This document shows, piece after piece, positions 568-63,630 of a DNA stretch of 64,000 nucleotides. The position numbers and the translations under genes were made by a program. The stretch comes from Candidatus Peregrinibacteria bacterium RIFOXYA2_FULL_41_18. Lineage in GTDB: Bacteria > Patescibacteriota > Gracilibacteria > UBA1369 > UBA12470. Location: assembly GCA_001788795.1 (NCBI GenBank), contig MFXH01000003.1, forward strand, positions 1 through 64,000, written 5' to 3'. The notes under the pieces were generated by a model that ran no database searches, was not told the DNA's origin, and was given only the letters and a program-made list of their open reading frames with translations. Each line of letters opens with the position of its first letter. Position 1 is the first letter of the stretch.

Positions 568-2648
568 AAATATTGTATTGCCCTATTGTCGAACGAAATT
601 ATTTTTTTCGCCTTAACTGCGATTTTTTTTATCTTCAACATTGTTGATGGCAATGCGTAATCTTGGAATGGCAAGCTTGATGGAGGAGGGAATGGAAGTT
701 TAAAAATTATAAGAGTTTTAACGTCGGGCTTCATTGTTCGCCAGAAGTCGTATGTTCCTATTAGTACGGAAGTTTCAGGAGAGTTTTCGTATGTAAGTGC
801 AATTTTTCCAAGTCCTCCCGAAATGTCCTGTGCCAATATTGAAATGCCTTCTTCTTTCATTTCAAGAGCCAGTTGATGATGCAATTGTTCGGCGGCTCTT
901 TTTGAATTTGTTAAAACGAAGACAGGTTTTTCAAGTGTTGGTAATTCGTGCGTAAGTTTATGGGCGACTTTTGCAGAAAAATCTTCCGCTTTTTGATTTG
1001 GCAGGTCCGATACCGTTTCGATGTATGGTTCGTTTTTCTCCTGTATTTCTACGGTTGTGTCGATTGGTAAAGCGAGAATTGATTTGAGGAATTTTCCTTG
1101 AGGATTTTCATTCTTGAACGTAATTGCAGATGAGATGAGCGAGAGTTTCGCAGGGATTCTCCAAATTTTTCGAGATAAAATTTCCCCAATGTTTTTTGGT
1201 GTAATTGTCATCATCGGTTCGCCGTTTTGATTGACCGTTATTTCGATTTCCGTTTCGAGGCTTGAGTTCAAAAATGTTAAAAACGACTTTTCTTCGGATT
1301 CCGGCAGGTTTGTAATTAGATCTGTTATTTTGCCGATTACATCTTTGCATTTTGCCCATTCTTGAGTTGATTCAATTTGGCTGTCGACTTTTAGTCCGTA
1401 ATATTCCGCATATTTTTCATGCACCATTCCGACGTATGCCATAAGCATTGTTATCTTGTCTTTTACTTCTTGCGGTAGGTCGGAGGTGGCAAATCTTTTT
1501 TCAAAATACATTACAGTAAGCGCTTTTTTTGCGTTCGTATAAAATTCGTCGATATCTCCAATTATAAGATGTGCGTTTTTCAATATCTCTTCATTTTTGA
1601 GGGTTATGCGCGCGAGCGTGAAGTGGTCCATTGTTATGATCTTGCTCGCTGACATTTTTCTCGCGATTTCTTGCGGGAATTTTTTATGCGCATAGTCAAA
1701 CCATAAATCTTTTGTGTTTTGAGAGAGATGTAAGTCGCGGCGCGATATTGTTTCTTTCTCGCCGAGTGAAATTATTTTTAGTGCAAAAGTTGTTTCGTCG
1801 GCTGTTAATGAAGGTTTTTCGAGTAATGCATCAAAAAGTTTTCTGTCCAAATACTGGTTTGGACTTAGAAGCTGGAAGGACTTATCGTTTTCTTCTGTTA
1901 ATTCCGGAGTTGAAATTATCGTTCTGAGTTCCGGATTTTGCGGAATTAAGTTTGTTTCGAAGGTCTCGATTAGTGCTCTGTCGGTAGCTTGCGTGATTTT
2001 TGCCGAGATGTCTTTTGGTGTTTTTTTGTCCGGCTGCGGAGTGAGTGTTTTTTTGTAGTTTTTTGACGCGAAAAGCAAAATTTCTTTCCACGTTATTTCA
2101 GATTTTTTAATTATATCTGCTATTTTATCGAGGTTGTTATTTGTGGAGAAATAAATGTCCAACAATTTGAAAATCGCTTCGATGTTAACTGTTACATCTT
2201 TCAGTGCGCGATGACGGCCGTACTCTTTTATGTCCAGTTTTTTACCAAGTACTTCGAGGCTGTATGATCTTTCTTTCGGAAATGCGATGTGTGCGATATC
2301 CATTGAATCGAGCCGTGGATTTTTCAAGTCGAATCCGTTTGCGTTTAAGAATTCGAGGTCGAAATTTATATTGTGTCCTGCGATTGGCAAGTCGCCTACA
2401 AAACTTATTATTTTATCTTTTATCTCTGTAAGTTTCGGTGCGTCTTTCAAGTCTTCATCTTTTATTCCTGTTAAATTCGTCACGAATTTTGGTAGTGTCA
2501 CCCCCGGATTTATAAAGGACTCAAAAGTTTTTTCCACTTCTCGCGTTTGCAGGTTTACCAAAGCTATTCCGATCTCGATAATTTTATCTCGGTCAGGGCT
2601 AAGGCCGGTGGTCTCGATGTCGAGGCAGATGAAGTGGGGGGAAGGCAT
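564..2648 (-). CDS. DEDDh 3'-5' exonuclease fused to a DinG-like helicase region with degenerate ATPase motifs
   Basis: N-term FICLDIETTGL, HNINFDLEFLN, HRALKDV exonuclease motifs; C-term LIIFKLPFPPPSSLPFQDYALPSTMLKIKK as in DinG; no Walker A seen. Confidence 0.75.
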   Translation of the reverse strand: MPSPHFICLDIETTGLSPDRDKIIEIGIALVNLQTREVEKTFESFINPGVTLPKFVTNLTGIKDEDLKDAPKLTEIKDKIISFVGDLPIAGHNINFDLEFLNANGFDLKNPRLDSMDIAHIAFPKERSYSLEVLGKKLDIKEYGRHRALKDVTVNIEAIFKLLDIYFSTNNNLDKIADIIKKSEITWKEILLFASKNYKKTLTPQPDKKTPKDISAKITQATDRALIETFETNLIPQNPELRTIISTPELTEENDKSFQLLSPNQYLDRKLFDALLEKPSLTADETTFALKIISLGEKETISRRDLHLSQNTKDLWFDYAHKKFPQEIARKMSASKIITMDHFTLARITLKNEEILKNAHLIIGDIDEFYTNAKKALTVMYFEKRFATSDLPQEVKDKITMLMAYVGMVHEKYAEYYGLKVDSQIESTQEWAKCKDVIGKITDLITNLPESEEKSFLTFLNSSLETEIEITVNQNGEPMMTITPKNIGEILSRKIWRIPAKLSLISSAITFKNENPQGKFLKSILALPIDTTVEIQEKNEPYIETVSDLPNQKAEDFSAKVAHKLTHELPTLEKPVFVLTNSKRAAEQLHHQLALEMKEEGISILAQDISGGLGKIALTYENSPETSVLIGTYDFWRTMKPDVKTLIIFKLPFPPPSSLPFQDYALPSTMLKIKKIAVKAKKIISFDNRAIQYL

Positions 2649-2676
2649 GAGGCAGAAGGTATAAGGGATGAGGAAA
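2641..2676 (+). repeat. Degenerate heptamer tract over a start codon
   Basis: AAGGCAT GAGGCAG AAGGTAT AAGGGAT GAGGAAA. Confidence 0.75.
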
Positions 2677-2730
2677 AATACGGCGATATTATCTCCTTTT
2701 TCGCGGGGTTTTGACAGGTGTTTTTTTCGA

Positions 2731-4041
2731 CTAGATAGTTGGAGTCGCTTTGATTTCCTCTATTAGGTTGAGCAGATTGATAACGATTTTGCATGTTTCC
2801 GCTCGTGTAATGTTGTTGCCTGGGGCGAAAAGAGTACTTGAATATCCCGACACAATTCCTCCAGTATAGGCTTTCATTACATATTCATAAAACCAATCTG
2901 ACTCGGAAACGTCTGTGAAAGAATTGTTCCAGTCGGACTCTGTACCTAGGAATTTTTCAGATCCGTCCAGATCTTCTATTTTTGATCCCTTTAGAAGTAT
3001 TTTCAAGGCTTCCGCTCTGTTGATGTAATTTCCCGGTTTGAAAGTTCCATCCGTATATCCTCCTACGATGTCTTCGTCATATGCCGATGTTATATAGTCT
3101 TCATACCAAGCGTCCGATTCTACGTCGGAAAATTTATTCTCATGTGAACCTATTTCGTATTCAAATGCTCCAAGTGCGATTTTTGTTATTTCGGCCCTTG
3201 TTATGTAATTATTTGGTCCAAATGTTCCATCACTATATCCTCCAACCGTGCCCTGCTCTGCAAGGTCGATTATGTAGTCTTCAGCCCAGTGTCCGGTTGT
3301 ATCCGAGAAGGATATTTCTTCCAGCTCTTCTTCCTCTTCTTCGGCTGCGTCGTGAGTCTGGTCTTCTTCCAATTCCGTAACGTTTTCACTAATTTCTTCA
3401 ATCGTAACTTTTACGGATGAACTCATCATATTGAATTCATTTGCTGCCGAAACGTAAAAAGTGTTTACGGCATTTTGTTCCAGTTCGACTTCGATTGCGA
3501 ATGTCCCGTCATAAAGGACATCTGTTTCACCCGTGTCCGAGCCCGTAACAATGACTGTCGCATCTGTCTCGGCAGTTCCCGTAATGGTCATAATGTCGGA
3601 ATCTACCGGAGAAGTTATCTCGTTTACGGTTGGGGTTTCCGGAGCCGAGTGGCTTATTCCGCTAGATGCTTCATATTCTGCCGCCACTTCTACGCCTTCG
3701 ACGATTTCTACCGTTACCGAGCTGGATTGGTCTCCGTCAGCGCCGACTGCGACTACTGAATAGAGGTTTGTTGATTCTTGTCCTAGGGCTACGGTTTTTG
3801 ACCACGCGCCGGTTTCATCTGCATAAGTTGGTGAAAGCTCATACGGTCCGCCCGTTACTATTATTTGTGCGTTTGGTTCTGCGGTTCCCGTTAATGTGAT
3901 CTTTTCAGCGTCAACAGGGGAGGGTGGAGTATCTACCACCGGTGGTTGTGTTGCGGTTGTTGTGAATGTTATTACTGCGGTGATTATCAGGCCGGCGACT
4001 ATTGTCGTGATGGCTGCTGGGATTATGATTTTTGTGTTCAT
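2731..4041 (-). CDS. Membrane-anchored surface protein: two Ig-like repeats plus three SLH domains
   Basis: N-terminal TM; repeated ITLTGTAEPNAQIIVTG / MTITGTAETDATVIVTG; three FSDVxxxxWYxxYIxxAxxxxIVxGYxDGTFxPxxxITRAE repeats. Confidence 0.8.
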   Translation of the reverse strand: MNTKIIIPAAITTIVAGLIITAVITFTTTATQPPVVDTPPSPVDAEKITLTGTAEPNAQIIVTGGPYELSPTYADETGAWSKTVALGQESTNLYSVVAVGADGDQSSSVTVEIVEGVEVAAEYEASSGISHSAPETPTVNEITSPVDSDIMTITGTAETDATVIVTGSDTGETDVLYDGTFAIEVELEQNAVNTFYVSAANEFNMMSSSVKVTIEEISENVTELEEDQTHDAAEEEEEELEEISFSDTTGHWAEDYIIDLAEQGTVGGYSDGTFGPNNYITRAEITKIALGAFEYEIGSHENKFSDVESDAWYEDYITSAYDEDIVGGYTDGTFKPGNYINRAEALKILLKGSKIEDLDGSEKFLGTESDWNNSFTDVSESDWFYEYVMKAYTGGIVSGYSSTLFAPGNNITRAETCKIVINLLNLIEEIKATPTI

Positions 4042-4051
4042 GGGGGAGGGT

Positions 4052-4080
4052 TAGAGATAAGAGATAAAAGATAAAAGATG
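4052..4080 (+). repeat. Degenerate heptamer tract (AAAGATA family)
   Basis: AGAGATA AGAGATA AAAGATA AAAGATG. Confidence 0.85.
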
Positions 4081-4090: not shown

Positions 4091-5179
4091 TTAAAGTAGG
4101 TTTATAAATTTGTCGAATAAAAAGCCGGTATCTACAGGGCCCGGAGTTGATTCGGGATGAAATTGTACCGAGAAAAAAGGAAGAGATTTGTGCTTGATGC
4201 CTTCAACCGTTTTATCATTTTGATTTATGAACCAAACTTTCCAATCTTTCGGCAGGGTTTTTGCGTTTATTGCGAATCCATGATTTTGGCTCGTTATATA
4301 GCATCTGTCTGTTTCGAGGTCTGTGCATGGTTGATTTTGCGCGCGATGGCCGTATTTTAATTTGTAAGTTTTTGCTCCTACCGCTATCCCCATTATTTGG
4401 CTGCCCAAGCATATTCCGAATGTCGGGATTTTTTTTGCCAGTGCTTGGCGCATTGTTTCGTGAGTTGCTGTTGGAAGCATAGGATCGCCCGGTCCGTTAC
4501 TGAAAAAAACTCCGTCGAATTTTGTTTTTGATTCAAACGGGTTTTTATCCCAAGGGAATCTTGTGACAGATATGTTTCGATTTAGGAATTCGCGTATTAT
4601 GTTCGTTTTGCAGCCTGTGTCTATCAGCGCAATGTGTTTTCTGCCACGTTTGTAAGTTGTGATTTTTCTGATTGAAACTTCAGATACTATATTGTCGAGA
4701 TCAGGCGCTCGGAATTCTGAGAATTTTAAATTGGGTTCGTTTGTTTTATGTGCGATTATTTGTCCGAGCATTGTTCCCTTTTCTCGTATTTTTTGCGTTA
4801 GGGCGCGCGTATCTACACCTGTTATTCCGGGGATTCCGAACTCTTTCAGCCATGCTCCGAGGCTTTTTTCTGCGTTCCAATGACTGAAATTCTCCGAATA
4901 TTCCGAAACGATTATGCCTCTCAAGTGAATTTTTTCGCTTTCAACAAACTTCATCAACTTGTCTTTGTCTTTCAGCATGGCAGGAACTCCATAATTTCCG
5001 ATTAATGGATATGTTAATGTCAAAATTTGTCCTTTGTAAGAAGGGTCGGTGAAACTTTCCGGATACCCCATCATTCCCGTGTTAAAAACCACTTCGCCTT
5101 CGGAATCCTTGTGTGCGCCGAAAGATTGGCCGGTAAGGATTGTGCCGTCTGAAAGGATGAGGGAGGAAAGAGAAGGCAT
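4091..5179 (-). CDS. carA: Carbamoyl-phosphate synthase small subunit (start set at MPSLSSLILSDG, not the ORF-track start 5257)
   Basis: LSDGTILTGQSFGA, class I GATase GICLGSQIMG and VQFHPESTPGP. Confidence 0.93.
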   Translation of the reverse strand: MPSLSSLILSDGTILTGQSFGAHKDSEGEVVFNTGMMGYPESFTDPSYKGQILTLTYPLIGNYGVPAMLKDKDKLMKFVESEKIHLRGIIVSEYSENFSHWNAEKSLGAWLKEFGIPGITGVDTRALTQKIREKGTMLGQIIAHKTNEPNLKFSEFRAPDLDNIVSEVSIRKITTYKRGRKHIALIDTGCKTNIIREFLNRNISVTRFPWDKNPFESKTKFDGVFFSNGPGDPMLPTATHETMRQALAKKIPTFGICLGSQIMGIAVGAKTYKLKYGHRAQNQPCTDLETDRCYITSQNHGFAINAKTLPKDWKVWFINQNDKTVEGIKHKSLPFFSVQFHPESTPGPVDTGFLFDKFINLL

Positions 5180-5210
5180 AAGGCAGAAGGGATAAGGGAG
5201 AAGGGAGGAG
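5172..5210 (+). repeat. Degenerate heptamer tract over carA start codon
   Basis: AAGGCAT AAGGCAG AAGGGAT AAGGGAG AAGGGAG GAG. Confidence 0.85.
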
Positions 5211-8432: not shown

Positions 8433-8533
8433 TAAGACACAAGACATAGACAGCAGAGGAAGAAGTTGAAGAAGTGACATAGTAAAAAACTCTCTTAAAT
8501 CTATAATCTCTAAGCTATAATCTATAAGTTATC
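8433..8533 (+). repeat. Composite tract: AAGACAC heptamers, GAAGTNNNN nonamers, ATCTATA heptamers
   Basis: AAGACAC AAGACAT AGACAGC; GAAGTTGAA GAAGTGACA; ATCTATA ATCTCTA AGCTATA ATCTATA. Confidence 0.8.
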
Positions 8534-8536: not shown

Positions 8537-9340
8537 ATGAACGATATCCCAAAAATTCTGAAAGTTGCCGAGGTAAGGACTGAGAATCCGACTGTGAAGA
8601 CTTATGTTTTTCGTGGATACGATTTGGGTGCTACTCCGGGGCAGTTTGTGAATGTTTGGATTCCGCGTGTGAATGAGAAACCTTTTTCAGTCGCTTATTG
8701 TGACGACAAGGAGTTTTGGCTTACGATTGCGGCCGTGGGACCTTTTAGTAAGAAAATTCATGATGAAATTAAGGTTGGATCGAAATTAGGAGTCAGAGGT
8801 CCTTATGGTCATGGATATACTGTTCCTTCCAAGAAGCATATTGCGCTTTTGGCCGGTGGATATGGAGCGGCGCCAATGTATTTTTTGGCACATGAAGCTG
8901 TTAAGAATGGATGCAAGGTTGAATTTATAGTCGGTGCGCGAAGCAAGGATTTGCTTTTATATACGGATAGAATTGAAAAAATGGAAGGTGTTAAGTTGCA
9001 TGTCGCGACCAATGATGGAAGTGTTGGCGAGAAGGGTTTTAATACTGTTATTCTTCAGAAATTAATAGACGGCGGTTCGATAGATATGGTGGCGACTTGT
9101 GGACCAGAAATTATGATGAAGGGGGCTATGGATATTTGTGAGAAAGCCGGTGTCCCGATCGAGGTTTCAATCGAGAGATATATGAAATGTGGGTCCGGTG
9201 TATGTGGAAATTGTTGTGTCGATGGTTTGGGAGTGCCCGTTTGTAAAAAAGGGCCGGTTATGAGTGGTGAAATGGCAAGAAAAATTGATGGATTGGCGAA
9301 GTGGCACCGTGACAGTGTGGGGATGAAGATTGTTTGGTAA
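8537..9340 (+). CDS. pyrK: Dihydroorotate dehydrogenase electron transfer subunit
   Basis: Ferredoxin reductase-like fold; CGSGVCGNCCVDGLGVPVCKKGPV cluster site. Confidence 0.92.
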   Translation: MNDIPKILKVAEVRTENPTVKTYVFRGYDLGATPGQFVNVWIPRVNEKPFSVAYCDDKEFWLTIAAVGPFSKKIHDEIKVGSKLGVRGPYGHGYTVPSKKHIALLAGGYGAAPMYFLAHEAVKNGCKVEFIVGARSKDLLLYTDRIEKMEGVKLHVATNDGSVGEKGFNTVILQKLIDGGSIDMVATCGPEIMMKGAMDICEKAGVPIEVSIERYMKCGSGVCGNCCVDGLGVPVCKKGPVMSGEMARKIDGLAKWHRDSVGMKIVW

Positions 9341-9360: not shown

Positions 9361-10017
9361 ATGGAAAACATCTCAAAGAAAGTTGCGACTGCTCTTCTCG
9401 ACATCGGTGCGGTGAAAGTTAGGATCAATCCTCCGTTTACATGGGTTTCTGGAATCAAGTCGCCAGTTTATTGCGATAACAGAATGATGATTTCTCATGT
9501 TGCCGGACGTGAAACTGTAGTTCAGGCTTTTAAAGAAATTCTTGCCGATAAAATTGCGAAAGGTGAGATGAAAGAACCGGATTATATCGGTGGAACGGCT
9601 ACGGCTGCGATTCCGTGGGCGGCATTTTTGGCTTATGAGCTTAAGAAACCGATGATTTATATCAGGCCCGAACCGAAGGCGCATGGTGCAGGAAAACAGA
9701 TTGAAGGTGATCTCAAAGAGGGGAGTTCCGTTCTGATTGTTGAGGATTTGATTTCGACAGGCGGAAGTAGCGTGAAGGTTGCAGAGGTTGTTAGAAAAGA
9801 GGGTAAGTGCGAGGTTACTGATATTTTTGCGATTGTAAGTTGGGAGATGCCGAAGGCTGTTGCTGCTTTTAAGGAAGGGAATGTGAATTTAACTAATCTT
9901 ACCGGATTTACGGACTTGATCGGATTTGCCGCAGAGAGGGGAGATATTCCTGCTGATAAGGTTGAGATTATCAATAAATTCAAAGAAAATCCTGCGGTTT
10001 GGGGGGATGGGTTGTAG
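9361..10017 (+). CDS. pyrE: Orotate phosphoribosyltransferase
   Basis: VLIVEDLISTGGSSVKVAEVVR PRPP motif; pyr cluster context. Confidence 0.94.
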   Translation: MENISKKVATALLDIGAVKVRINPPFTWVSGIKSPVYCDNRMMISHVAGRETVVQAFKEILADKIAKGEMKEPDYIGGTATAAIPWAAFLAYELKKPMIYIRPEPKAHGAGKQIEGDLKEGSSVLIVEDLISTGGSSVKVAEVVRKEGKCEVTDIFAIVSWEMPKAVAAFKEGNVNLTNLTGFTDLIGFAAERGDIPADKVEIINKFKENPAVWGDGL

Positions 10018-10046
10018 GTCGTAAGTCATAAGTCGTAAGTCATATG
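10015..10046 (+). repeat. Heptamer tract from pyrE stop codon to next start codon
   Basis: TAGGTCG TAAGTCA TAAGTCG TAAGTCA TATG. Confidence 0.9.
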
Positions 10047-17501: not shown

Positions 17502-17533
17502 GAATACAGAATATCGAATAGCGAATACCGAGT
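17502..17533 (+). repeat. Heptamer tract (GAATNNC family) upstream of trmD
   Basis: GAATACA GAATATC GAATAGC GAATACC GAG. Confidence 0.85.
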
Positions 17534-17573
17534 GCTATATTAACAAAATAGCGAAGAGTCTTCCATCTGCTTT

Positions 17574-17593
17574 CTGTAATTCTGTAACTCTGT
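17574..17593 (-). repeat. Octamer tract adjoining rpsI stop, opposite orientation
   Basis: plus strand CTGTAATT CTGTAACT CTGT. Confidence 0.7.
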
Positions 17594-18013
17594 TTATCTT
17601 TTCGACCACTGTGGTGCTCTTCTTGCTCTTCTGAGACCAAACTTCTTTCTTTCTTTGATTCTTGCGTCTCTTGTGATTAAGCCAGCTTTCTTAAGTGTTA
17701 GGCGTATTTCTGCATCATATTCCAACAAAGCTTTTGATATGCCATGTCTAATCGCTTCAGCTTGTCCTTTTTGTCCGCCACCTTCTACTGTTACAGTTAC
17801 GTCAAAATCATTTTCTTTCTTTACCAACTTCAATGGGGTTTTGATAAGAGGTATCAAAGCGCTAACTTTTATATACTCTTTTACGTCTTTGCCATTAATA
17901 GTCATCTTGCCTGTTCCTTTTTGTAATTTCACTCTTGCGATAGCCCTCTTTCTTTTTCCACAAGAATAATGATATTTACCTGATGATTTTGTAGTTGATT
18001 TCTCTTTTGGCAT
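17594..18013 (-). CDS. rpsI: 30S ribosomal protein uS9
   Basis: GKRKRAIARVKL; C-term RRARRAPQWSKR. Confidence 0.96.
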   Translation of the reverse strand: MPKEKSTTKSSGKYHYSCGKRKRAIARVKLQKGTGKMTINGKDVKEYIKVSALIPLIKTPLKLVKKENDFDVTVTVEGGGQKGQAEAIRHGISKALLEYDAEIRLTLKKAGLITRDARIKERKKFGLRRARRAPQWSKR

Positions 18014-19913: not shown

Positions 19914-20540
19914 TTATTTCGAGTAGAACTCAATGATCATCTTGGTATCTACTGCAGATTCCATATCCTCTTTTTCAGGCATATTGATGACCTCTCCTTT
20001 TAGACCGCCTAAGTCTACCTTTAGCCATTTTGGAGATTTGAATTTTTTATCATTTTTCGCTTTTTCAAAAAGCTTGCTTCCTTTTTTTGTCTCATATACT
20101 TCAAAAGAATCTCCTACTTTAAGCTGTATCGATGGGATATCAACTCTTTTTCCATTTACCTTGATGATACCATGTCCTACGATCTGCTTAGCCTGATTCC
20201 TAGAATCGGCCAATCCAGCTCTGTAAATTATATTGTCCAATCTTGTTTCTAGCCCTTTTTGCAAAGCCAACTCGGTTGAACCAGTTTGCTTGATAGCTTT
20301 TTCATAATAAATTTCGAATTGTCTTTCGGCAATTCCATAAATTCTCTTGGCCTTTTGCTTAGCTCTAAGCTGTTTTGCGTATTCAGTTTGCTTACCGAAT
20401 GCATTTTTCGCCAATTGACCCGGAGCATAATTTCTTCTTGTAATTGCGCATTTCTGACCTTCACATCGAGCGCCTCTTAAAAAAAGTTTTTCTCCTTCTC
20501 GGCGGCATAATTTACATTTTGGTCCTGTGTATCGAGACAT
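19914..20540 (-). CDS. rpsD: 30S ribosomal protein uS4
   Basis: MSRYTGPKCKLCRREGEKLFLRG; S4 domain RLDNIIYRAGLADSRNQAKQIVGHG. Confidence 0.96.
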   Translation of the reverse strand: MSRYTGPKCKLCRREGEKLFLRGARCEGQKCAITRRNYAPGQLAKNAFGKQTEYAKQLRAKQKAKRIYGIAERQFEIYYEKAIKQTGSTELALQKGLETRLDNIIYRAGLADSRNQAKQIVGHGIIKVNGKRVDIPSIQLKVGDSFEVYETKKGSKLFEKAKNDKKFKSPKWLKVDLGGLKGEVINMPEKEDMESAVDTKMIIEFYSK

Positions 20541-20546: not shown

Positions 20547-20583
20547 TAATTAGTGATTAGTGATTAGGCAGGAGGCAGAAGTT
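20547..20583 (+). repeat. Heptamer tract upstream of rpsD, reaching rpsK stop
   Basis: TTAGTGA TTAGTGA TTAGGCA GGAGGCA GAAGTTA. Confidence 0.8.
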
Positions 20584-20956
20584 AAACTTTTCTTGCTCTA
20601 GGCTTTCTGCATCCGTTGTGAGGAACCGGTGTTCTGTCAAAAATAGCTTCGACTTCAAGTCCGTTAGCGATCAAAGCTCTTACAGACTGCTCTCTTCCGG
20701 CGCCAACGCCTTTTATATAAACATCAACCTTTTCCAATCCATATAATTTAGCTTTATTAACAGCGTTTTCTGCTGCCACTTGTCCTGCGTATGGAGTTGA
20801 TTTCTTAGTGCCTTTGAATCCGCTTGTACCTGCACTGCTCCACGCTATAGCATCACCTTTATCGTCTGTTATCGTCACGATAGTATTGTTGTAACTTGCA
20901 TTAATGTATACGTTGCCTTTTGTTACACTTCGTCTTTTTTTTGTGCTGGTTGCCAT
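20582..20956 (-). CDS. rpsK: 30S ribosomal protein uS11
   Basis: NTIVTITDDKGDAIAWSSAGTSGFKGTKKSTPYA; PVPHNGCRKPRARKV. Confidence 0.97.
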   Translation of the reverse strand: MATSTKKRRSVTKGNVYINASYNNTIVTITDDKGDAIAWSSAGTSGFKGTKKSTPYAGQVAAENAVNKAKLYGLEKVDVYIKGVGAGREQSVRALIANGLEVEAIFDRTPVPHNGCRKPRARKV

Positions 20957-20957
20957 T

Positions 20958-20996
20958 GTTAGTTAGTAGTTAGTAACTTGTAACTGGTAGTAAAGA
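20958..20996 (+). repeat. Heptamer tract upstream of rpsK
   Basis: GTTAGTA GTTAGTA ACTTGTA ACTGGTA GTAAAG. Confidence 0.8.
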
Positions 20997-21034
20997 GGGG
21001 AGGCGGGATAAGCAGATTGTATCCTTATCGTTTA

Positions 21035-22659: not shown

Positions 22660-23298
22660 TTAAGAAAGATAATTCTCTAGTGCTTTTTCGAGGTCGCGAT
22701 CTACGTCTTGAATCGACTGATCTCCGTTTACCGATATCATTTTGTTTTCCGATTGATATTTCTTGATTACCGGCATTGTTTCTTGTTGAAATGCTTTCAG
22801 ACGCGTATTTATTGCTTCGGCATTATCGTCCTTCCTTGTAACCAATTCGCTTCCACATTTTTCACATTCGTTTTTTGTGTACTGAGCCGGATAAACTTCT
22901 TTGCATTTGCCGCATATTCTTCTGGTTGTTAGTCGTTTTATGGCGGTTTCTTCCGATATTTCAATAAGCACCCCAATAAAATCTCTTCCGAGTTTCTTCA
23001 TAAGGGCATCGAAAGTCTCCGCTTGTTCCATTTTTCTAGGTATTCCATCAAAGAGTACGTTAGTTCCGAGTTTTATGGTTTTTGCAAAATTTTCTATAAT
23101 TTCCATTACGATTTCGTTCGAAACCAAATGTCCTGCTTCAATTATCGACTTAATTTTCTTGCCGAGTTCTGAATCGGCAGATGCCAGTTTGCGAAGTTCT
23201 GCTCCTGTTTCAAAAACTTGAATTCCGTGTCTTTCAGCAAAAATTTTACCTTGAGTTCCTTTTCCGGATCCCTGCATGCCGAATAAAACTATATCCAT
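22660..23298 (-). CDS. adk: Adenylate kinase with four-Cys LID
   Basis: GMQGSGKGTQGKIFAERHG; CGKCKEVY...CEKCGSEL. Confidence 0.93.
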   Translation of the reverse strand: MDIVLFGMQGSGKGTQGKIFAERHGIQVFETGAELRKLASADSELGKKIKSIIEAGHLVSNEIVMEIIENFAKTIKLGTNVLFDGIPRKMEQAETFDALMKKLGRDFIGVLIEISEETAIKRLTTRRICGKCKEVYPAQYTKNECEKCGSELVTRKDDNAEAINTRLKAFQQETMPVIKKYQSENKMISVNGDQSIQDVDRDLEKALENYLS

Positions 23299-23306
23299 GA
23301 TGTGTA

Positions 23307-23340
23307 GGAATTACGAAATACGAATAACGAATTACGGGAG
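23307..23340 (+). repeat. Heptamer tract (GAATNNC family) upstream of adk
   Basis: GAATTAC GAAATAC GAATAAC GAATTAC GGGAG. Confidence 0.85.
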
Positions 23341-34073: not shown

Positions 34074-34079
34074 GGGGGA

Positions 34080-34129: not shown

Positions 34130-34151
34130 GGAAAATCCGGGACGATATGTT

Positions 34152-34354: not shown

Positions 34355-34369
34355 GATTTGAATCAAAAA

Positions 34370-35629: not shown

Positions 35630-35672
35630 AGAATTACAGAGTTACAGAATTGCAGAGTTGTAGAAAGCAGAT
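35630..35672 (+). repeat. Octamer tract in the fusA-tuf spacer
   Basis: AGAATTAC AGAGTTAC AGAATTGC AGAGTTGT AGAAAGCA. Confidence 0.85.
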
Positions 35673-38538: not shown

Positions 38539-38575
38539 CAAGACACAAGACACAGATAGCAGAAAAGATTGTAGA
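38539..38575 (+). repeat. Heptamer tract (AAGACAC family) upstream of lipoprotein gene
   Basis: AAGACAC AAGACAC AGATAGC AGAAAAG. Confidence 0.75.
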
Positions 38576-39070: not shown

Positions 39071-39103
39071 GATAGTAGTTGGTATAAAGTATTAAGTATT
39101 ATG
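39071..39103 (+). repeat. Heptamer tract upstream of rpsG
   Basis: GTATAAA GTATTAA GTATTAT GCG. Confidence 0.65.
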
Positions 39104-42600: not shown

Positions 42601-43469
42601 GCTTTAAGCAAACTTGCTACAAGTTTTGCTCGTTTGATAAGTTTCTTCTTTTTTTGACCGCCCGCTTTTACGATTTCTTTTAACAAATCTTCTTCCAGCT
42701 TCTTCAATTCAACATTCTTGATAATATCCCTGATAGCTTCCGCTCCGGTATTCGCCTTGAAAAGATGACCGAATTTCATAGACATGTCTCTATATTGAAG
42801 TTCGGATAGGACTGCGCCTACGTGCAAACTTGCCAAATCTTCTTTGGCTTTTTGATGTTGTCCGATAAGCTCATCCGATTTTGAAGCCGCTTCTTTCTCT
42901 ATTTCTTCGATTTTCTTTGCTTTTAATTCCTTTGCAATTTCTTTAGATTTCTCGATTTCCTTTGTTTTTTCTGCGTATTCTTTCTTGATTTTCTGCTTGT
43001 AGTTTTTGAATTCATCTTTCAATTGTTCTTCAGACTCCTTCTTGGTTTTTTCATCAACTTGAGTGACTATATAAGCTGCGAAATATACAACCTGTTCAAT
43101 AGTTTTTACCGGTAAATCCAAGAGCAAGCCGATACGGCTCGGTGTGGATCTCAAAAACCAAATATGAGTTACTGGTACCGCCAACTTGATATGTCCCATG
43201 CGTTCGCGTCTTACGATTGAGCGAGTTACTTCGACTCCGCATTTTTCGCATATTACGCCTTTGTACCTGATGCGCTTGTATTTTCCGCAATAACATTCCC
43301 AGTTTTTCGTTGGACCGAAAATCTTTTCGCAGAAAAGACCGTCTTTTTCCGGTTTTTGAGTGCGATAATTGATAGTTTCCGGTTTTTTGATTTCACCATG
43401 TGACCAGGACAAAATTTGTTCCGGCGATGCGACTGAAATCGCTATGGTGTCGAAGGTTGTATGTTTCAT
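39654..43469 (-). CDS. rpoC: RNA polymerase beta' subunit
   Basis: [55 protein letters not shown]. Confidence 0.97.
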
Positions 43470-43475
43470 ATGTGG

Positions 43476-43530
43476 ATAAGAGATAAAAGATTAAAGATAA
43501 AAGATTGAAGACTAAAGACTAAAGACCCAG
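43476..43530 (+). repeat. Heptamer tract filling the ssb-rpoC spacer and including the ssb stop codon
   Basis: AGAGATA AAAGATT AAAGATA AAAGATT GAAGACT AAAGACT AAAGACC. Confidence 0.92.
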
Positions 43531-44007: not shown

Positions 44008-47000
44008 TTATTCGTTGGAGTTTTCATCTTCTTCAATTCCAAATCCTTCAGTGTCCTCTTCTGAAACCGGATCTTCTTCCATTTCATCAAGTTTTGATTC
44101 ATCAAATTCTTCTTCGGCATCCTCATCACCCTCTTCAGGTTCATCTACCACCGAAGTGCTTGGTTGTTCTCCTTCAGGAGTGTCAACCACTAGGTTTTCT
44201 TCAGAGGCCAAAACCTCTTCTTTTGTATATATCTCTTCTTCCTCTTCTTCATCTATTTCGCTTTCTACCATTTCGACGTTAAGACCCAAGCTTTGAAGCT
44301 CTTTTACCAATACGTTAAAGCTTTCCGGTGTGCGAGGCTTCTTGATAGGTTCATCTTTTACGATAGCTTCATAAGCCTTCGCCCTTCCGTAAACGTCATC
44401 TGATTTAATTGTTAACATCTCTTGCAATACATGAGCTGCTCCATAAGCTTCAAGAGCCCAAACTTCCATTTCTCCGAATCTCTGTCCACCGTGCTGAGCT
44501 TTTCCTCCAAGAGGTTGTTGTGTGACAAGGGAGTATGGTCCGACAGAGCGAGCGTGAATCTTGTCTTCAATCAAGTGGTTAAGTTTCATCATGTAGGCAA
44601 TACCAACTGTTGTTTTATGATCGAAAGGTTCACCCGTTCTACCATCGAACATTTGGATCTTTCCTTCGTTTGGAAGCTTAGCTTCTTTCAAAGCCTGTTC
44701 GATTTCATCAGTTGTAATACCTTCTAACGGTGGAGTCGCAATCTTATATCCAACTTCTTTTGCCGCCCAACCCAAGTGTGTTTCCAAGATCTGTCCAATA
44801 TTCATACGACTTGAAACACCAAGCGGGTTCAATATGATATCAACTGCGCGTCCATCCGGTAGGTAAGGCATGTCCGCTTCAGGTACTATTATAGAGATGA
44901 CACCTTTGTTACCGTGGCGACCTGCCATTTTGTCACCGATTGAAATTCTTCTTGTTTGAGCGACGTCAACTTTTAATTGTTGATTAACTCCTGTTGGAAG
45001 TTCATCTCCGGCAGTTCTGTCGAAGAGTTGAACACTTACAACCTTTCCGCCTTCTCCACCGGGGAGTCGGAGTGAAGTGTCTTTTACATCGCGAGCTTTT
45101 TCCCCGAAGATTGCTCTTAGAAGTCTTTCTTCGGCAGTTAATTCGGTTTCACCTTTAGGAGTTATTTTGCCTACCAATATGTCTCCTTCTCTTACAGATG
45201 CGCCGATTCTTACGATGCCTCTTTCGTCCAAGTCTTTTAATTTAGCTTCGCCGACATTTGGAATATCGCGAGTTACTATTTCAGGTCCGAGCTTGGTATC
45301 GCGAATATCTATCGTGAATGTTTCGATATGAACCGAACTATAAGTGTCCTTGTGAAGAAGTCTTTCCGATAAAATTACGGCGTCCTCAAAGTTATATCCT
45401 TGCCAGCTCATATAGGCTACAAGTACGTTTTGTCCAAGAGCTAATTCGCCATCATCTGTTGATGCGCCGTCAGCGAGGACTTCATTTTTCTTAACTTTTT
45501 GTCCTTTTTCGCAAACCGCTCTTTGATGGAAACAAGTCGCTTGGTTTGTGCGTTCGTAAACTCTGAGAGAGTAGGTTTTCTTATGTCCGTTGTCATACAT
45601 TACCGTGATTTCGTTTGCATCTACGCTTGTTACCGTGCCCGGACCATCTGCCATTATTACTTGTCCCGAGCTTTCCGCCGCTATTTTTTCAACACCGGTT
45701 CCAACTATAGGAGCGCTTGGTTTAAGAAGAGGAACTGCCTGACGTTGCATGTTTGAACCCATCGAAGCTCTTGTATTGTCGTCATGCTCCAAAAATGGGA
45801 TCAAGGATGTCGTGATTGATATAATCTGTTTTGGAGAAATATCTATATGTGTCAGATCTTTTATGTGAGCGAGGATAGGTTCGCCGTTTGCACGAGCCGC
45901 AACGCGGTTTTCTACGAATTCGCCTTGAGGGTTTAATATGGAGTTTGCTTGAGCGATAATTAGTTCTCTTTCGTCTTCTGCGTCGTAATATGTGACGTCA
46001 TTCGTTACGTAGGTTCTTACCGGAATTTCTTTCAAATCTTTGATCTTTTCTATTTCCTTTGCTTCTTTTTCTCCTATAACATCTCCAGAACTGACAATTA
46101 CTTTTCCAGCCTTACTCTTAACTTCTCCTCCAGCCGTATGTCCTTCGAGTTTTTCAGCTTTATTTTCGCATGTTCGTGAAATTTTTCTGAAAGGAGTCTC
46201 GATAAATCCATACTGGTTTAATCTTGCATAAGACGCCAAGTGGACTACGAGACCGATGTTTGGTCCTTCAGGTGTCGCAATAGGACATATTCTTCCGTAA
46301 TGAGATTGATGTACGTCGCGAACATCGAAGCTGGCTCTTTCTCTTGAAAGACCTCCCGGACCCATAGCGGAAAGTCTTCTCTTATGAGCTAATTCCGCAA
46401 GAGGATTTGTCTGGTCCATGAATTGAGATAACTGAGAGCTTGCATAAAATTCTCTTAAAGCTGCCGTAATCGGGCGTGAGTTGATAAGTTGAGTAGGAGT
46501 GATTGCGTCAAGTTCCATAACCGTCATTCTGTCTTTTGCAATTCTATCCGTTCGTAGCAAACCTACACGGAACTTATTCTGAACAAGTTCGCCAACAGTT
46601 CGGATTCTCCTGTTAGATAAATGATCTATGTCATCCGGCTTACCCTCTCCGTTATTTAGATTAATCAAATGTCTTAAGATGTGTATCAAATCGTCTACTT
46701 GGAATGTGTGATATTTTTTCTTGTTAGGTGTGGTTAATCCGAATCGTCTGTTTAGTTTGTATCTCGCCACAGAACCCATGTCGTATTTTCTGTAGTCGAA
46801 GAACATTGATTCAATAAGAGATTTTGCATTTTCAGGAGTTGCCAAGTCGCCAGGGCGGATTTTTCTATATATGCTCTTATATGCTTCGTCGGCATCTTTT
46901 GCTGGGTCTTTTTGAAGCGTTAAGAAAATCTGATCTTTTGTCGGATCTTTTATTAGGTCTTTGCAGATCTTTAGGATTTTTTCATCCGTATCAAATCCGA

Positions 47001-47559
47001 ATACTCTTAGAAGGCTTGTGATATAAATCTTTCTTTTCCTGTCGATCTTTACGCTTATTACTCCTTTCTTATCTGTTTCGATTTCGAGCCATGCGCCTCT
47101 TTTTGGTATGATTTTCGCCGCATGATTATGAGGATATCCAGCTATGCGTGAGAAGAATACACCCGGTGATCTTACGAGCTGGCTCACTACGACGCGTTCA
47201 ATTCCGTTTATAATAAAAGAACCTGCTTCAGTCATAAGCGGTATTCCTCCCAAAAACACATCCTGTTCTTTAATTTCACCGCTTTCCTTATTGATAAGCT
47301 GAACGTGTACTTTTAAAGGTGATTCGTATGTGAGATTTTTGTTCTTACATTCTCTTGCGGAGTGTTTCGGCTCTCCAACCGAGTGATCTAAGAAGTGTAA
47401 TTCAAGCTTCTTGCCCGAGAAATCTGTAATAGGGGATATCTCGTCTAGAAGTTCCTTGATACCTTCTTTCAAGAACCATTTGTAACTATTCGTCTGTATT
47501 TCTATAAGATTCGGAAGAGGGTATTCAAACAAAGGCTTGTGCAGGAATTTTCGTTGCAT
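44008..47559 (-). CDS. rpoB: RNA polymerase beta subunit
   Basis: SSQLSQFMDQTNPLAELAHKRRLSAMGPGGLSRERASFDVRDVH; GDKMAGRHGNKGVIS. Confidence 0.97.
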   Translation of the reverse strand: MQRKFLHKPLFEYPLPNLIEIQTNSYKWFLKEGIKELLDEISPITDFSGKKLELHFLDHSVGEPKHSARECKNKNLTYESPLKVHVQLINKESGEIKEQDVFLGGIPLMTEAGSFIINGIERVVVSQLVRSPGVFFSRIAGYPHNHAAKIIPKRGAWLEIETDKKGVISVKIDRKRKIYITSLLRVFGFDTDEKILKICKDLIKDPTKDQIFLTLQKDPAKDADEAYKSIYRKIRPGDLATPENAKSLIESMFFDYRKYDMGSVARYKLNRRFGLTTPNKKKYHTFQVDDLIHILRHLINLNNGEGKPDDIDHLSNRRIRTVGELVQNKFRVGLLRTDRIAKDRMTVMELDAITPTQLINSRPITAALREFYASSQLSQFMDQTNPLAELAHKRRLSAMGPGGLSRERASFDVRDVHQSHYGRICPIATPEGPNIGLVVHLASYARLNQYGFIETPFRKISRTCENKAEKLEGHTAGGEVKSKAGKVIVSSGDVIGEKEAKEIEKIKDLKEIPVRTYVTNDVTYYDAEDERELIIAQANSILNPQGEFVENRVAARANGEPILAHIKDLTHIDISPKQIISITTSLIPFLEHDDNTRASMGSNMQRQAVPLLKPSAPIVGTGVEKIAAESSGQVIMADGPGTVTSVDANEITVMYDNGHKKTYSLRVYERTNQATCFHQRAVCEKGQKVKKNEVLADGASTDDGELALGQNVLVAYMSWQGYNFEDAVILSERLLHKDTYSSVHIETFTIDIRDTKLGPEIVTRDIPNVGEAKLKDLDERGIVRIGASVREGDILVGKITPKGETELTAEERLLRAIFGEKARDVKDTSLRLPGGEGGKVVSVQLFDRTAGDELPTGVNQQLKVDVAQTRRISIGDKMAGRHGNKGVISIIVPEADMPYLPDGRAVDIILNPLGVSSRMNIGQILETHLGWAAKEVGYKIATPPLEGITTDEIEQALKEAKLPNEGKIQMFDGRTGEPFDHKTTVGIAYMMKLNHLIEDKIHARSVGPYSLVTQQPLGGKAQHGGQRFGEMEVWALEAYGAAHVLQEMLTIKSDDVYGRAKAYEAIVKDEPIKKPRTPESFNVLVKELQSLGLNVEMVESEIDEEEEEEIYTKEEVLASEENLVVDTPEGEQPSTSVVDEPEEGDEDAEEEFDESKLDEMEEDPVSEEDTEGFGIEEDENSNE

Positions 47560-47566: not shown

Positions 47567-47607
47567 AGAAGTTAGAGAAGTAGAAGAAGTGACGGAGTAA
47601 CTTAGCG
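47567..47607 (+). repeat. Nonamer tract upstream of rpoB
   Basis: GAAGTTAGA GAAGTAGAA GAAGTGACG GAGTAACTT AG. Confidence 0.9.
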
Positions 47608-54860: not shown

Positions 54861-55478
54861 CTAATAATTAGCAATTATTGTTCGACCTGCGAATACTTTA
54901 TCACCTTTTTTAATTTTCAGCTCGAGTTTAGGAATTATTAATGTTACCTGACTTCCTAGGCGTATAAGACCAAGGTCCTGGCCTTTTTCAACCTGTTGCA
55001 TTTCGCGAACAAGACTTACCGTACGGCGCGCCACCATGCCAGCTATTTGGATTATTTTCAGTTTCAAATCTCCTTCAATGATGAATTCCTGATGTTCGTT
55101 TTCCGCGTAAGTGTTTATGTCGATTTTTTTTGATAGAGCGTTTCTATGTTTGCCCTTTGTCCATTTCACCATTTTTATTGTTCCTGCGATCGGGGCTTTT
55201 TGAAAATGGACATCCAGCGGAGTCATAACTATTGAAATAAGCCAGCCTGAATCTTTTATAGTGTCATCAAGCCAGACTTTTATGCGATTTTTCCCTTTTT
55301 GTATCTCAGCTATTTTGTTTGGCGTGATCTCTGTTATGCTCGATATTTTCCCCTGTGCCGGACTGATTATATTGCGTCCCGACGGAATTTGTATTTTTGG
55401 GTTTCTTAGGAACCAGAGCTTGTAGAAAAGCATGCTTGATATCAGAAGGCCTAGGAATGCGTATATAAAATTTTCCAT
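54861..55478 (-). CDS. psd: Phosphatidylserine decarboxylase, short form
   Basis: N-terminal TM; IPSGRNIISPAQGKI; MTPLDVHFQKAPIAG; IRLGSQVTLIIP self-cleavage region. Confidence 0.88.
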   Translation of the reverse strand: MENFIYAFLGLLISSMLFYKLWFLRNPKIQIPSGRNIISPAQGKISSITEITPNKIAEIQKGKNRIKVWLDDTIKDSGWLISIVMTPLDVHFQKAPIAGTIKMVKWTKGKHRNALSKKIDINTYAENEHQEFIIEGDLKLKIIQIAGMVARRTVSLVREMQQVEKGQDLGLIRLGSQVTLIIPKLELKIKKGDKVFAGRTIIANY

Positions 55479-56247
55479 GTTTTTTTCGGGTTGCCGCTAG
55501 AAGATATAGGCTTCGTATATATATTTCAACAGCATGTATGATTTCTGGGAATGTTTCTTTGATTATTTGTTGTTTTATTTTTTTGCCTGTTAAAAACTTT
55601 TCGTATACTTGTGTTTGGCTGATGCGGAGGGCCTTGTCCATTAAGAATGTTTTTAGATCTTCTGGGTTTTGAAAAGGTTCCAGAGATGCGTTTTTTCGAA
55701 ATGTGCGGTAATTCTTTATGATTTTTTTTGTATTGAAAAACATATATCTGGCGCATGCAAATTCAAACCTGCTGTGTTTGCCGAATAGAAGATTTCCCAT
55801 GTCTGGTTTTGAGTGATCCCAGTGTGGGTCGTGCCAATTGCTCCATCCTTTTATGTTTTTTAATCGGTGTCCTTTGTGGTGGGCCGGAGTTAGTCCGTCT
55901 ACAACGAAATGCAAGCCTCTCGCGCATGTAAAATGTGCGAGTTTTCTCTGCAATTTGTTGTCCGAATTCATTTCAATACAAGCTATTTTAAATGCCTCTA
56001 TCGCATTGTTGATTGCATCGCCGTCATCTGTTAGAGGATTGTACATGTGGTCAGAAACAAGTCCGATTTTTCTCGACCATTTGCCGTCCGGTCCGTAATA
56101 GCCAGAATGAAGATCGAGGCTTATTGTTCCCGGGAATCCGTTTTTTTTCTTTTTCGCGAGAGCATGGCGATAACCGATCTCATTTATCATGTGATGAGTC
56201 GAGGCGCCGTCTAGGTTGAAGAATTGGAATCCAAATCCTGAGAACAT
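55306..56247 (-). CDS. Putative zinc-dependent phospholipase C-like protein; C-terminus overlaps psd out of frame
   Basis: THHMINEIGY; LAHFTCARGLHFVVDGLTPAHHKGH His-rich pattern; family call tentative. Confidence 0.5.
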   Translation of the reverse strand: MFSGFGFQFFNLDGASTHHMINEIGYRHALAKKKKNGFPGTISLDLHSGYYGPDGKWSRKIGLVSDHMYNPLTDDGDAINNAIEAFKIACIEMNSDNKLQRKLAHFTCARGLHFVVDGLTPAHHKGHRLKNIKGWSNWHDPHWDHSKPDMGNLLFGKHSRFEFACARYMFFNTKKIIKNYRTFRKNASLEPFQNPEDLKTFLMDKALRISQTQVYEKFLTGKKIKQQIIKETFPEIIHAVEIYIRSLYLLAATRKKHGKFYIRIPRPSDIKHAFLQALVPKKPKNTNSVGTQYNQSGTGENIEHNRDHAKQNS

Positions 56248-56249: not shown

Positions 56250-56298
56250 GGAAGAAGAAGTAGGGGAAGTAGAAGAAGTGACGTAGTGACTTAGTGGA
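56250..56298 (+). repeat. Nonamer tract filling spacer between the BASS gene stop and next start
   Basis: GAAGTAGGG GAAGTAGAA GAAGTGACG TAGTGACTT AGTGG. Confidence 0.9.
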
Positions 56299-57516: not shown

Positions 57517-59517
<2,001 letters not shown>

Positions 59518-60072: not shown

Positions 60073-60795
60073 TTAAATTTTTATTAGTCTTGAGACCTCT
60101 TCAAGGAGGGCTTTGTTATATGCGTAAGGCATTCGACACGGACCGAGAATTCCTATGAAGCCTTTAAATCCTTCGATTTCATAAGTTGTTACGATGATAC
60201 TGCAGCTTTCTATTTGTTCGATTAAATTTTCTTCTCCAATAAAAATCTTTACGGTCGATCCTATGTTTAGCGACTCCAGTGTTTTCACCAAGCTGGTTCC
60301 TTCTTCAAGTACTTCTATTATGTGTCTTGCTTTAAGCGGATTTTCCACGAATTCAGGTTGTTTCAAGATGTTTGAAACTCCGAGGTAAAATGTTCTTTTG
60401 TTATCCGGTATTGTTGCAAAACTGATATTGGATGTCGCTTGTGATAGTAGGGCGACAGCATCATAAATTTTTTCTTTTGCTTTTTTGAGTTTGTACTGTT
60501 CGTTAAGGTGCTTAATGTTTTCGTTTGCGATTGTGCGTGCCTTGTCGAAATCCACAAGTTCTTCTACGTATAGCTTATATCCTGCTTGAGTCGGAACTCT
60601 TCCAGCAGATGTGTGCGGCTGGGTGATAAGTCCTAGTTCTTCAAGTTGCGCCATGTCGTTTCTGATCGTGGCTGTGCTTACCGATAGGTTATAGCTTATA
60701 ACTATCGTTTTTGAACCGACAGGTTCGGCTGTTTCTATAAATTGTTTTATTATTGCGTGGAGAATCTTCTGTTTGCGCGGGTCTAGAGGGAGCAT
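60073..60795 (-). CDS. hrcA: Heat-inducible transcription repressor HrcA
   Basis: ILHAIIKQFIETAEPVGSKTI; SVSTATIRNDMAQLEELGLITQPHTSAGRVPTQAGYKLYVE. Confidence 0.94.
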   Translation of the reverse strand: MLPLDPRKQKILHAIIKQFIETAEPVGSKTIVISYNLSVSTATIRNDMAQLEELGLITQPHTSAGRVPTQAGYKLYVEELVDFDKARTIANENIKHLNEQYKLKKAKEKIYDAVALLSQATSNISFATIPDNKRTFYLGVSNILKQPEFVENPLKARHIIEVLEEGTSLVKTLESLNIGSTVKIFIGEENLIEQIESCSIIVTTYEIEGFKGFIGILGPCRMPYAYNKALLEEVSRLIKI

Positions 60796-60800: not shown

Positions 60801-60839
60801 GGAATTACGAATACCGAATGTCGAATACCGAGAAGAAGT
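60801..60839 (+). repeat. Heptamer tract (GAATNNC family) upstream of hrcA
   Basis: GAATTAC GAATACC GAATGTC GAATACC GAGAAG. Confidence 0.88.
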
Positions 60840-60901: not shown

Positions 60902-60928
60902 GATGTCTTATTTTTTAATAAATTAAAC

Positions 60929-61866: not shown

Positions 61867-62469
61867 ATGGAGGAGTCTTTGACCCACGTTGATATCCCTT
61901 TTGATCCCGAGGCCAGTCCGATTTTTATAATTCAAGGTTGGGACGGGCCGTTTTCTCATCGTATTCACGGTAAGCGCGACTTGCGTTATTCTGTCGATTT
62001 TGCTCTTCCGCTTGGTACACCCGTTTTGTCAGGAGTTTCAGGGGTGGTTAAATGCGTGTGGATATCAGGTTTCTCATACGACGGTGTTGATTTGGTGAGT
62101 GGTTTAGGCATGACCGGAACATTTGTTTCAATCGCTCCTGATCATAATTCTGATCTTAGGGTTGTGTATTCACACCTTGATCCAAATAGCTTATGTGTTG
62201 ACAGAGGTGATCATGTGGAATCGGGAACCGTTTTGGGCAAAACCGGTTTGAGCGGATGGGTTGGTCCCATACCTCATTTGCATACTCATATTCAAAGATC
62301 CGTTTGCAAAGGTCCTTCAGCAACAATACCATTTTCAATAAATGGTATTGCGGGTTCATTGGCTGATGCCGAAGTTGTGATTCGGACTGAAAGGCAGTTC
62401 CTCGGTTTTGCAAAAATAAGGGATCAAATTGCCAGTAGGGCAGGTATTATTATGGCTTCTATTGGTTGA
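61867..62469 (+). CDS. M23-family (LytM-like) metallopeptidase
   Basis: [64 protein letters not shown]. Confidence 0.85.
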
Positions 62470-63463
62470 TATAGGCTGCCAACTCTACGAGGCGAACAGA
62501 ATAGCCCCATTCGTTGTCGTACCAAGCCAAGACCTTAACCATATTTTCCCCAACGACCATTGTCGATTCGGCATCTACGATTGAAGATCTGTTATCTTTT
62601 ATGAAGTCGCTGGAAACCAAAGGTTCTTCGCAGAATCCCAGAATGCCTTTCAAGTATGTTTCTGAAGCTTCTTTGAGTGCCTTGTTAACTTCTTCGACTG
62701 TTACAGAAATGTTAACTTGGCATACGAGGTCGACAATTGAAACCGTTGGAGTAGGAACTCTTACAGATAGGCCGTTTAATTTGCCTTTTAATTCCGGAAG
62801 AACTTCTCCGATTGCCTTTGCGGCTCCTGTTGAAGTTGGGATCATATTTAAACTTGCAGCTCTTGCTCTGCGCATATCTCCTTTGTGAGATGCGTCTAAG
62901 ATGTTTTGGTCGTTTGTGTATGAATGAATTGTTGTCATCATACCTTTGATAATGCCGAATTTGTCGTTTAAGACTTTTACTACCGGAGCTAAGCAGTTCG
63001 TCGTGCATGATGCGTTTGAAACTATCTTATCAGTTTCCGGTTTGAATGTTTGTTGGTTTACTCCGATAACGATTGTTCTATCGAGGTCTTTTCCCGGTGC
63101 GGATACTATTACTCTTTTCGCTCCTGCTTTCAGGTGTTTTTCAGTTCCTGTTCGATCACGGAATACTCCTGTTGATTCTATTACTACATCTATTCCCAAA
63201 TCTTTCCATGGCAGTTTCTCAGGATCTCTTTCGCCGGTTGTTACAATGTCTTTCCCGTTTACAGTCATTAAGCCTGTTCCGTTTGTTTTTACGTCGCCCT
63301 TGAATTGACCATAAATCGAGTCGTATTTAAGGAGATGTGCCAAGTTACTGTTTGGTGATGGATCGTTTATGGCTATTACATCTACAAGATCGGCCATCAT
63401 ATTTGCTCTGAAGAACGCGCGTCCGATTCGACCGAATCCGTTAATTGCTACTCGTGGTTTCAT
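62459..63463 (-). CDS. gap: Glyceraldehyde-3-phosphate dehydrogenase
   Basis: [52 protein letters not shown]. Confidence 0.97.
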
Positions 63464-63469
63464 GTGAGA

Positions 63470-63497
63470 AGGGAGGTAAGAGATAAAAGATTGAAGG
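63470..63497 (+). repeat. Heptamer tract (AAAGATW family) upstream of gap
   Basis: AGAGATA AAAGATT GAAGG. Confidence 0.7.
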
Positions 63498-63581
63498 AAT
63501 TCAAATTACGGTATGGATTATACATGAAAAATATTGTGTCAATCGATGCAAACCCTTGTAATAGCCTTGACGAGTGTCTTG

Positions 63582-63630
63582 CGGAATTGTAGAAGTGTAG
63601 AACTGTAAAGGTGTAGAATTGTAGATGTAT
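63582..63630 (+). repeat. Octamer tract running into the start codon of the Sua5-like gene
   Basis: GGAATTGT AGAAGTGT AGAACTGT AAAGGTGT AGAATTGT AGATGTAT GG. Confidence 0.9.

Follow-up and report, generated by a model that had tools for sequence, protein, structure and literature searches.

Short tandem heptamers are a known feature of the spacers between genes in heterocystous cyanobacteria, where they are called short tandemly repeated repetitive (STRR) sequences. Long simple sequence repeats with units of 5-11 nt, among which heptamers dominate in many bacteria, were reportedly surveyed by Mrazek in 2007 (as cited in PMC4679880), with polymerase slippage proposed as their source. Here, we examine degenerate tandem tracts with units of 7-9 nt that occupy many intergenic spacers in a 64,000-nt stretch of DNA (the window; bases 1-64000 of contig 3) from Candidatus Peregrinibacteria bacterium RIFOXYA2_FULL_41_18. 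They resemble STRR sequences in being short tandem heptamers in spacers, a likeness rightly drawn in a first-pass annotation of the window, but they use other units, several periods and ordered composites. They also differ from the Mrazek repeats, which are reportedly near-perfect long arrays, whereas the present tracts are mostly short and imperfect and are subject to rules of placement and strand.

Two further systems invite comparison. The GGGAATC and GGGGA(C/T)T heptamers of Xanthomonas and Nostoc have a period of 7, occur between genes in tens to about 180 copies and lie closer to the 5′ neighboring open reading frame (ORF) whatever the direction of that ORF; for Xanthomonas, no preference for the leading or lagging replication strand was reported (PMC4692102). 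The TAACTGA repeats of Beggiatoaceae are heptamers that end just before the starts of many unrelated genes, where ribosome binding sites are few (PMC4679880). The tracts described here are similar to the latter in ending just before starts, in the scarcity of ribosome binding sites and in their wide spread. Yet TAACTGA is one motif oriented toward starts, whereas here there are many motifs, and 3′ gene edges are used as commonly as 5′ edges. A TAACTGA-type family was not among the units found, and no GGGAATC or GGGGAYT family was present among the frequent words of the genome.

Our analysis confirmed that the tandem tracts are real and genome-wide. The source genome (G000; 1.24 Mb, 99% complete and rated 0.57% contaminated) was sampled over 813 kb, later 978 kb, together with 370 kb of G001 and 471 kb of G002, two relatives from the same family; further relatives were sampled as 20-kb pieces. 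By TrmD comparison, the nearest named relatives are Candidatus Peregrinibacteria GW2011_GWF2_43_17 (81%) and CG2_30_44_17 (75%). A simple script took long ORFs as genes, and single start positions may be wrong. Tracts were detected with Tandem Repeats Finder and our own scans, using dinucleotide-preserving shuffles as controls; a strong tract was defined genome-wide by a score of at least 10 and a unit of 5-12 nt, and the threshold in the window was a score of at least 8.5. Exact lag matching scores imperfect units low, as in G002, and counts there are lower bounds.

Strong tracts are found in 105 of 495 spacers in the 813-kb sample and in 5 after shuffling, ruling out chance or base composition as their source. 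Identity at a lag of 7 nt dominates (z=13.7-22 against shuffles, with harmonics at 14 and 21) and accounts for 68 of the 105 tracts, followed by lag 8 (z of about 7) and lag 9 (z of about 3-4). A generic effect of AT-rich DNA was rejected, as Clostridia loci show their excess at lags 9, 10 and 12 and little at 7. The lag-7 signal recurs in other Peregrinibacteria and in some other Patescibacteria (G108, G113 and G099) and is not seen in most of the classes sampled. Inside the window, 12 tracts of period 7-8 lie in 5.6 kb of spacer and none in 53.1 kb of coding DNA; no Rfam match was found within these 64 kb. Inverted-repeat elements spanning a spacer were also rejected, since its left and right tracts mostly belong to different families.

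Read on their own purine/G-rich strand, the tracts are placed against the gene to their 5′ side, and they are as frequent behind stop codons as in front of starts. Genome-wide, they mark 47 of 557 gene 5′ edges and 72 of 437 gene 3′ edges; read on the purine-rich strand, 84 run outward from the abutted gene and 10 inward. We initially took this polarity to be set by gene edges alone, a reading that was revised because the purine strand is nearly constant along each contig, in agreement with the T/G skew at third codon positions. In strongly skewed stretches, with the strand assigned by third-position skew alone, the purine strand falls on the strand rich in third-position T and G (T3/G3-rich) by 83:8 (p=8e-17). 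The corresponding polarity in G001, by GC sign, is 28:2. A strand-frame recount by GC sign was weaker because one family (B, below) has more C than G. The contigs themselves form two classes, with strong third-position skew (about 0.3) in C1, C3, C6, C9, C12 and C14-C16 and almost none in C2, C4, C5, C7, C8, C10, C11 and C13.

This geometry matches that of the Xanthomonas and Nostoc heptamers, with a period of 7 and tracts that press against the 5′ ORF on the G-rich strand. The earlier statement that no description was known for this lineage is therefore incomplete. We do not claim membership of the same class, because unit and strand features differ: here, each genome has many families with periods of 7-9 that are not built for G-quadruplexes, units have turned over between genera, and orientation follows one strand (83:8).

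The T3/G3-rich strand is the replication-linked one, and by the usual sign of such skew it would be the leading strand. That sign may not hold here, since the ribosomal protein, EF-Tu and EF-G genes of the window, which are usually highly expressed, are on the T3/G3-poor strand in the source genome, G001 and G002, and the 16S gene is on the T3/G3-rich strand. The contig that carries dnaA shows no skew switch.

Plus is the T3/G3-rich strand in the window, and the minus strand carries 58 of the 66 genes. The window tracts stand before starts because their purine strand is plus while most genes are minus, so that the first-pass description of nearly all tracts as preceding a start codon reflects the window and does not extend to the genome. 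Its count of at least 24 spacers was also too high: about 18 (18 of 46 spacers of at least 20 nt) hold a tract that reaches the threshold, and for 15 of these p<=0.01 when the spacer itself is shuffled; some of the quoted tracts are weak. The named families were nevertheless recovered at the named places by Tandem Repeats Finder and our scans, and the picture of many unrelated families that share a period and keep to spacers was borne out; the tracts neither dissolve into the shuffled background nor stop at the window's end. They are as follows, with p values against shuffles.

4053-4079, plus strand: AAGATWA (AAAGATW), family C, period 7, which fills the spacer upstream of the start of the gene at 2731-4041 (p=0.005).
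5180-5210, plus strand: AAGGSAK, period 7, leader of the minus-strand gene at 4091-5179 (p=0.005).
8462-8483, plus strand: a copy of family A (GAAGTNNNNGAAGT-GACATAGT) in a divergent spacer.
8498-8527, plus strand: AATCTAT, period 7, leader of the gene at 8537-9340, pyrimidine-rich on plus (p=0.005).
10018-10044, plus strand: TAAGTCR, family F, period 7, directly 3′ of the stop of the gene at 9361-10017 (p=0.005).
17502-17531, plus strand: GAATNNC, family E, period 7, 7 nt upstream of trmD (p=0.005).
17572-17593, minus strand: AGARTTAC, family D, period 8, directly 3′ of the stop of the gene at 17594-18013.
20549-20581, plus strand: ATTAGTG/GGCAGAA, period 7, before the gene at 19914-20540 (p=0.005).
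20960-20989, plus strand: AGTTAGT, family G, period 7, before the gene at 20582-20956, with other heptamers here in both relatives (p=0.01).
23305-23336, plus strand: GAATNNC, family E, period 7, before the gene at 22660-23298, called adk in the first pass (p=0.005).
34079-34120, plus strand: family A (three copies of GAAGTNNNN at 34079-34112, then GAAGT-GACATAGT), separating the start of rpsJ from its conserved leader (p=0.005).
35630-35664, plus strand: AGARTTAC, family D, period 8, between the EF-Tu and EF-G genes (p=0.005).
38539-38554, plus strand: a fragment of family B (CAAGACACAAGACACA; AAGACAC) (p=0.005).
39082-39101, plus strand: GTATTAA, period 7 (p=0.005).
43475-43518, plus strand: AAGATWA, family C, period 7, which fills the spacer upstream of the 1271-aa gene at 39654-43469 (p=0.005).
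47568-47590, plus strand: family A 9-mers (GAAGTNNNN), before the 1183-aa gene at 44008-47559, called rpoB in the first pass.
56257-56287, plus strand: family A, 9-mers (GAAGTNNNN) at 56257-56279 and then GACGTAGT, before the gene at 55306-56247 (p=0.025).
59475-59514, plus strand: family A, 9-mers (GAAGTNNNN) at 59475-59506 and then GACGTAGT, before dnaK (p=0.005).
60808-60831, plus strand: GAATNNC, family E, before the gene at 60073-60795, called hrcA in the first pass.
63584-63625, plus strand: GAATTGTA/GAAGTGTA, period 8, beyond the GAPDH gene at 62459-63463 (p=0.005).

The leader upstream of rpsJ (34121-34369, minus strand) is conserved in G002 and contains the G+C-rich blocks GGCCCGG, CGGCAGGGGAAA, GCCGGAAC and CGTCCCGG. 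It has no Rfam match and may be a ribosomal leader RNA.

Families A and B are not the simple tandem tracts they were first taken for but ordered composites in tens of copies: A has the form (GAAGTNNNN)n-GAAGT-GACRTAGT, and B reads TAAGGAGCAAGACACAAGACACAGACAGCAGAG, sometimes with A after it. On the T3/G3-rich strand lie 64 of 72 copies of A and 26 of 29 of B, as well as 10 of 10 tracts of C, 18 of 23 of E and 7 of 7 of H. The 13-mer GAAGTGACRTAGT of family A has 97 copies in the source genome and 1 in 88 other genomes of the order, and the motif is absent from G001 and G002. Such a pattern could reflect a polar DNA signal, in which spaced GAAGT-like cores at gene edges would be bound by a strand-reading protein, as Chi or KOPS are. 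The strong strand polarity, a constant GAAGT core every 9 nt with varied letters in between and the roughly 97 copies of the 13-mer in this species all fit such a signal. We nonetheless consider it quite unlikely, because several unrelated families share the placement and the motif is missing from members of the same family. KOPS in particular were set aside, as the 99% complete genome has no match to the FtsK/SpoIIIE domain (PF01580).

The many ordered copies at unrelated loci, and the length that tracts add to spacers (below), would also suit non-autonomous mobile elements, with A and B as strand- and boundary-specific insertions similar to single-stranded DNA (ssDNA) transposons or REP-like elements. 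Insertion of ssDNA is known to be biased by replication strand. However, A and B lack defined ends, inverted repeats and constant length, and relatives carry unrelated units in the same slots. Searches of the genome for Y1 transposases and reverse transcriptases found neither, other transposases not being searched. Altogether, we regard mobile elements as an improbable source.

Throughout the genome, A and B mostly follow stop codons and begin at the stop codon itself, lying between it and the terminator hairpin; where family A starts, the stop is TAG in 66% of cases compared to 29% otherwise. Families C and E mostly precede the starts of genes on the opposite strand. The possibility that tracts clip proteins was rejected, because the two proteins stop at the same residue in 70% of the family A genes with an orthologue.

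The coding sequence next to these tracts is itself altered. Where A or B follows a gene, G at 4-fold degenerate sites reaches 0.73 in the last four codons, up from about 0.16, and C drops to 0.01, along a gradient that spans about 20 codons. The rise is from 0.18 to about 0.28 in tract-free genes, and tightly packed genes are flat. In the strand frame, G rises only in the left gene, both at 3′ ends (OR 6.6, p=1e-56) and at the 5′ starts of left genes on the opposite strand (OR 2.1, p=4e-8), and there is none in the right gene. Orthologues in G001 and G002 without A or B also have G-rich ends (0.51-0.54 versus 0.23 mid-gene, over 35 and 48 sites only). Thus, the pressure predates the present tracts, which were rejected as its sole cause. 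G-rich synonymous sites at abutted gene ends mark a long-standing, strand-specific pressure.

These gene ends bear on another account, in which A and B would act in RNA as purine-rich, C-free trailers with an effect on release, termination or mRNA stability, selection acting on the last codons as well. It draws on the start of both families at the stop codon, their position before the terminator hairpin and the G-rich, C-free last codons, shared with orthologues. Against it, copies of the same family precede starts in antisense, genes on the other strand far more seldom carry one at the 3′ end (43 versus 4 for A) and G rises on the same strand at the 5′ ends of opposite-strand genes. Of the accounts weighed here, it appears the least probable.

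Comparison with relatives showed that slots persist while units are replaced. The slot at 20957-21034, read along the gene, holds ACTAACT in the source genome, AATCTCT in G002 and CCTAAAT in G001. Elsewhere, family A lies opposite an AGTCAGT array in G001 (locus L019) and opposite a AGTTACAGAG tract in G002 (locus L198). Tract-bearing spacers are longer than their tract-free orthologues, the median excess being 25 nt against G001 and 47 nt against G002, with a median tract length of 27 nt; spacers without a tract differ by medians of -1 and +6 nt, respectively. Adjacent units are more alike than units from other loci in A8, E and C, which is what slippage predicts, and no such likeness was found for A9 and B.

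Other repeated words also occur in spacers. G002 has a longer dispersed repeat that includes CTATAATATCTGCGATATTCCAATTCGGAACC and a TATAAT-like box, present in 7-9 sampled spacers, for example before trmD. In G000, TGGTATAAT, a word similar to a promoter -10 element, occurs in 21 of 495 sampled spacers; in two orthologous spacers, the tract is upstream of this -10-like box and so outside the leader.

A role as translation leaders was considered for tracts that precede starts. These cells show no sign of Shine-Dalgarno pairing. Shine-Dalgarno motifs precede 3.4% of starts compared to 2.8% after shuffling, remain at the shuffled level in G001 and G002 and reach 3% versus 3% in genomes of the same order. 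The 3′ end of the 16S rRNA (L218, G000:C9:50201-52300, 1788-1826) is GGATGGAATACCTCCTTT instead of the usual GGTTGGATCACCTCCTTT, with CCTCC kept; loss of the anti-Shine-Dalgarno was rejected, as this end reads GGAATACCTCCTTT and retains the core. G makes up only about 8% of the sequence just before starts, and the genome encodes a protein with several S1 domains. Such tracts could serve as G-poor, pyrimidine-rich, unstructured leaders that load ribosomes, each unit bound by an RNA-binding domain, for example one of ribosomal protein S1. Heptamers also end just before starts in other Peregrinibacteria, and tracts in the source genome and G001 tend to precede the same genes (Fisher p=0.025), but the same comparison with G002 was not significant. 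Moreover, the same families follow stops in the opposite sense orientation, occur between convergent genes and are oriented by the replication-linked strand, leading us to view a leader function as unlikely.

The reading we prefer, though only tentatively and at somewhat less than even confidence, is directional replication slippage combined with the copying of arrays into unconstrained slots between genes. The tracts would be lineage-specific short tandem arrays, representing extra length in slots without function: those separating a stop codon from its terminator or a promoter from its start, and those upstream of promoters. Slippage would extend the arrays of period 7-8, and the ready-made composites A and B would also be copied to tens of loci by a route that the proposal leaves unspecified. 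The process would be directional, with the purine/G-rich strand being the T3/G3-rich replication strand, and arrays would press against the gene on the 5′ side until coding constraint stopped them. Selection would remove arrays inside genes, as well as G-rich arrays in G-poor leaders that lack Shine-Dalgarno pairing. What the analysis observed is the period and density of the tracts, where and on which strand they are placed, the length they add, the turnover of their units and the synonymous gradient; their origin by slippage and copying, their directional growth and the view that no specific function is needed are inferred.

Several points weigh against this reading. Adjacent 9-mers of family A are identical in 4.4% of cases compared to 10.6% across loci, the opposite of slippage, and family A resembles a binding array, with GAAGT cores set at intervals among freely varying letters. 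The reading does not account for the spread of A and B, with neither a reverse transcriptase nor a Y1 transposase matched in the genome. The synonymous gradient is strong only in the source genome, and both mutation and selection are compatible with it. Finally, the Xanthomonas heptamers have the same placement without a strand preference (PMC4692102), so the two rules need not share a cause. Slippage with copying accounts for most of the facts, but not for how A and B spread, why the 9-mers of A are diverse or what causes the gradient. The first-pass interpretation is partly supported: its proposal of a process rather than one mobile repeat holds up, since orthologous slots in relatives contain other units.

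Repeated heptamers next to genes have been noted in several bacterial phyla, and no cause for them has gained acceptance. In the present genome, three rules can be measured, namely the edge used, the strand used and a gradient at synonymous sites in one neighbor. Because relatives have other units in the same slots, strain comparison can separate mutational from functional readings. In a lineage that shows no Shine-Dalgarno use, the leaders are also relevant to how translation begins. It is possible, though we think it doubtful, that a replication-linked, directional process rewrites gene boundaries in Peregrinibacteria, laying purine-rich arrays of period 7 to 9 on one replication strand, pushing them up to the 5′ gene and imposing G at synonymous sites in the last or first codons of that gene, with units replaced between genera. 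Such a process may also underlie where heptamers are placed in Xanthomonas and Nostoc.

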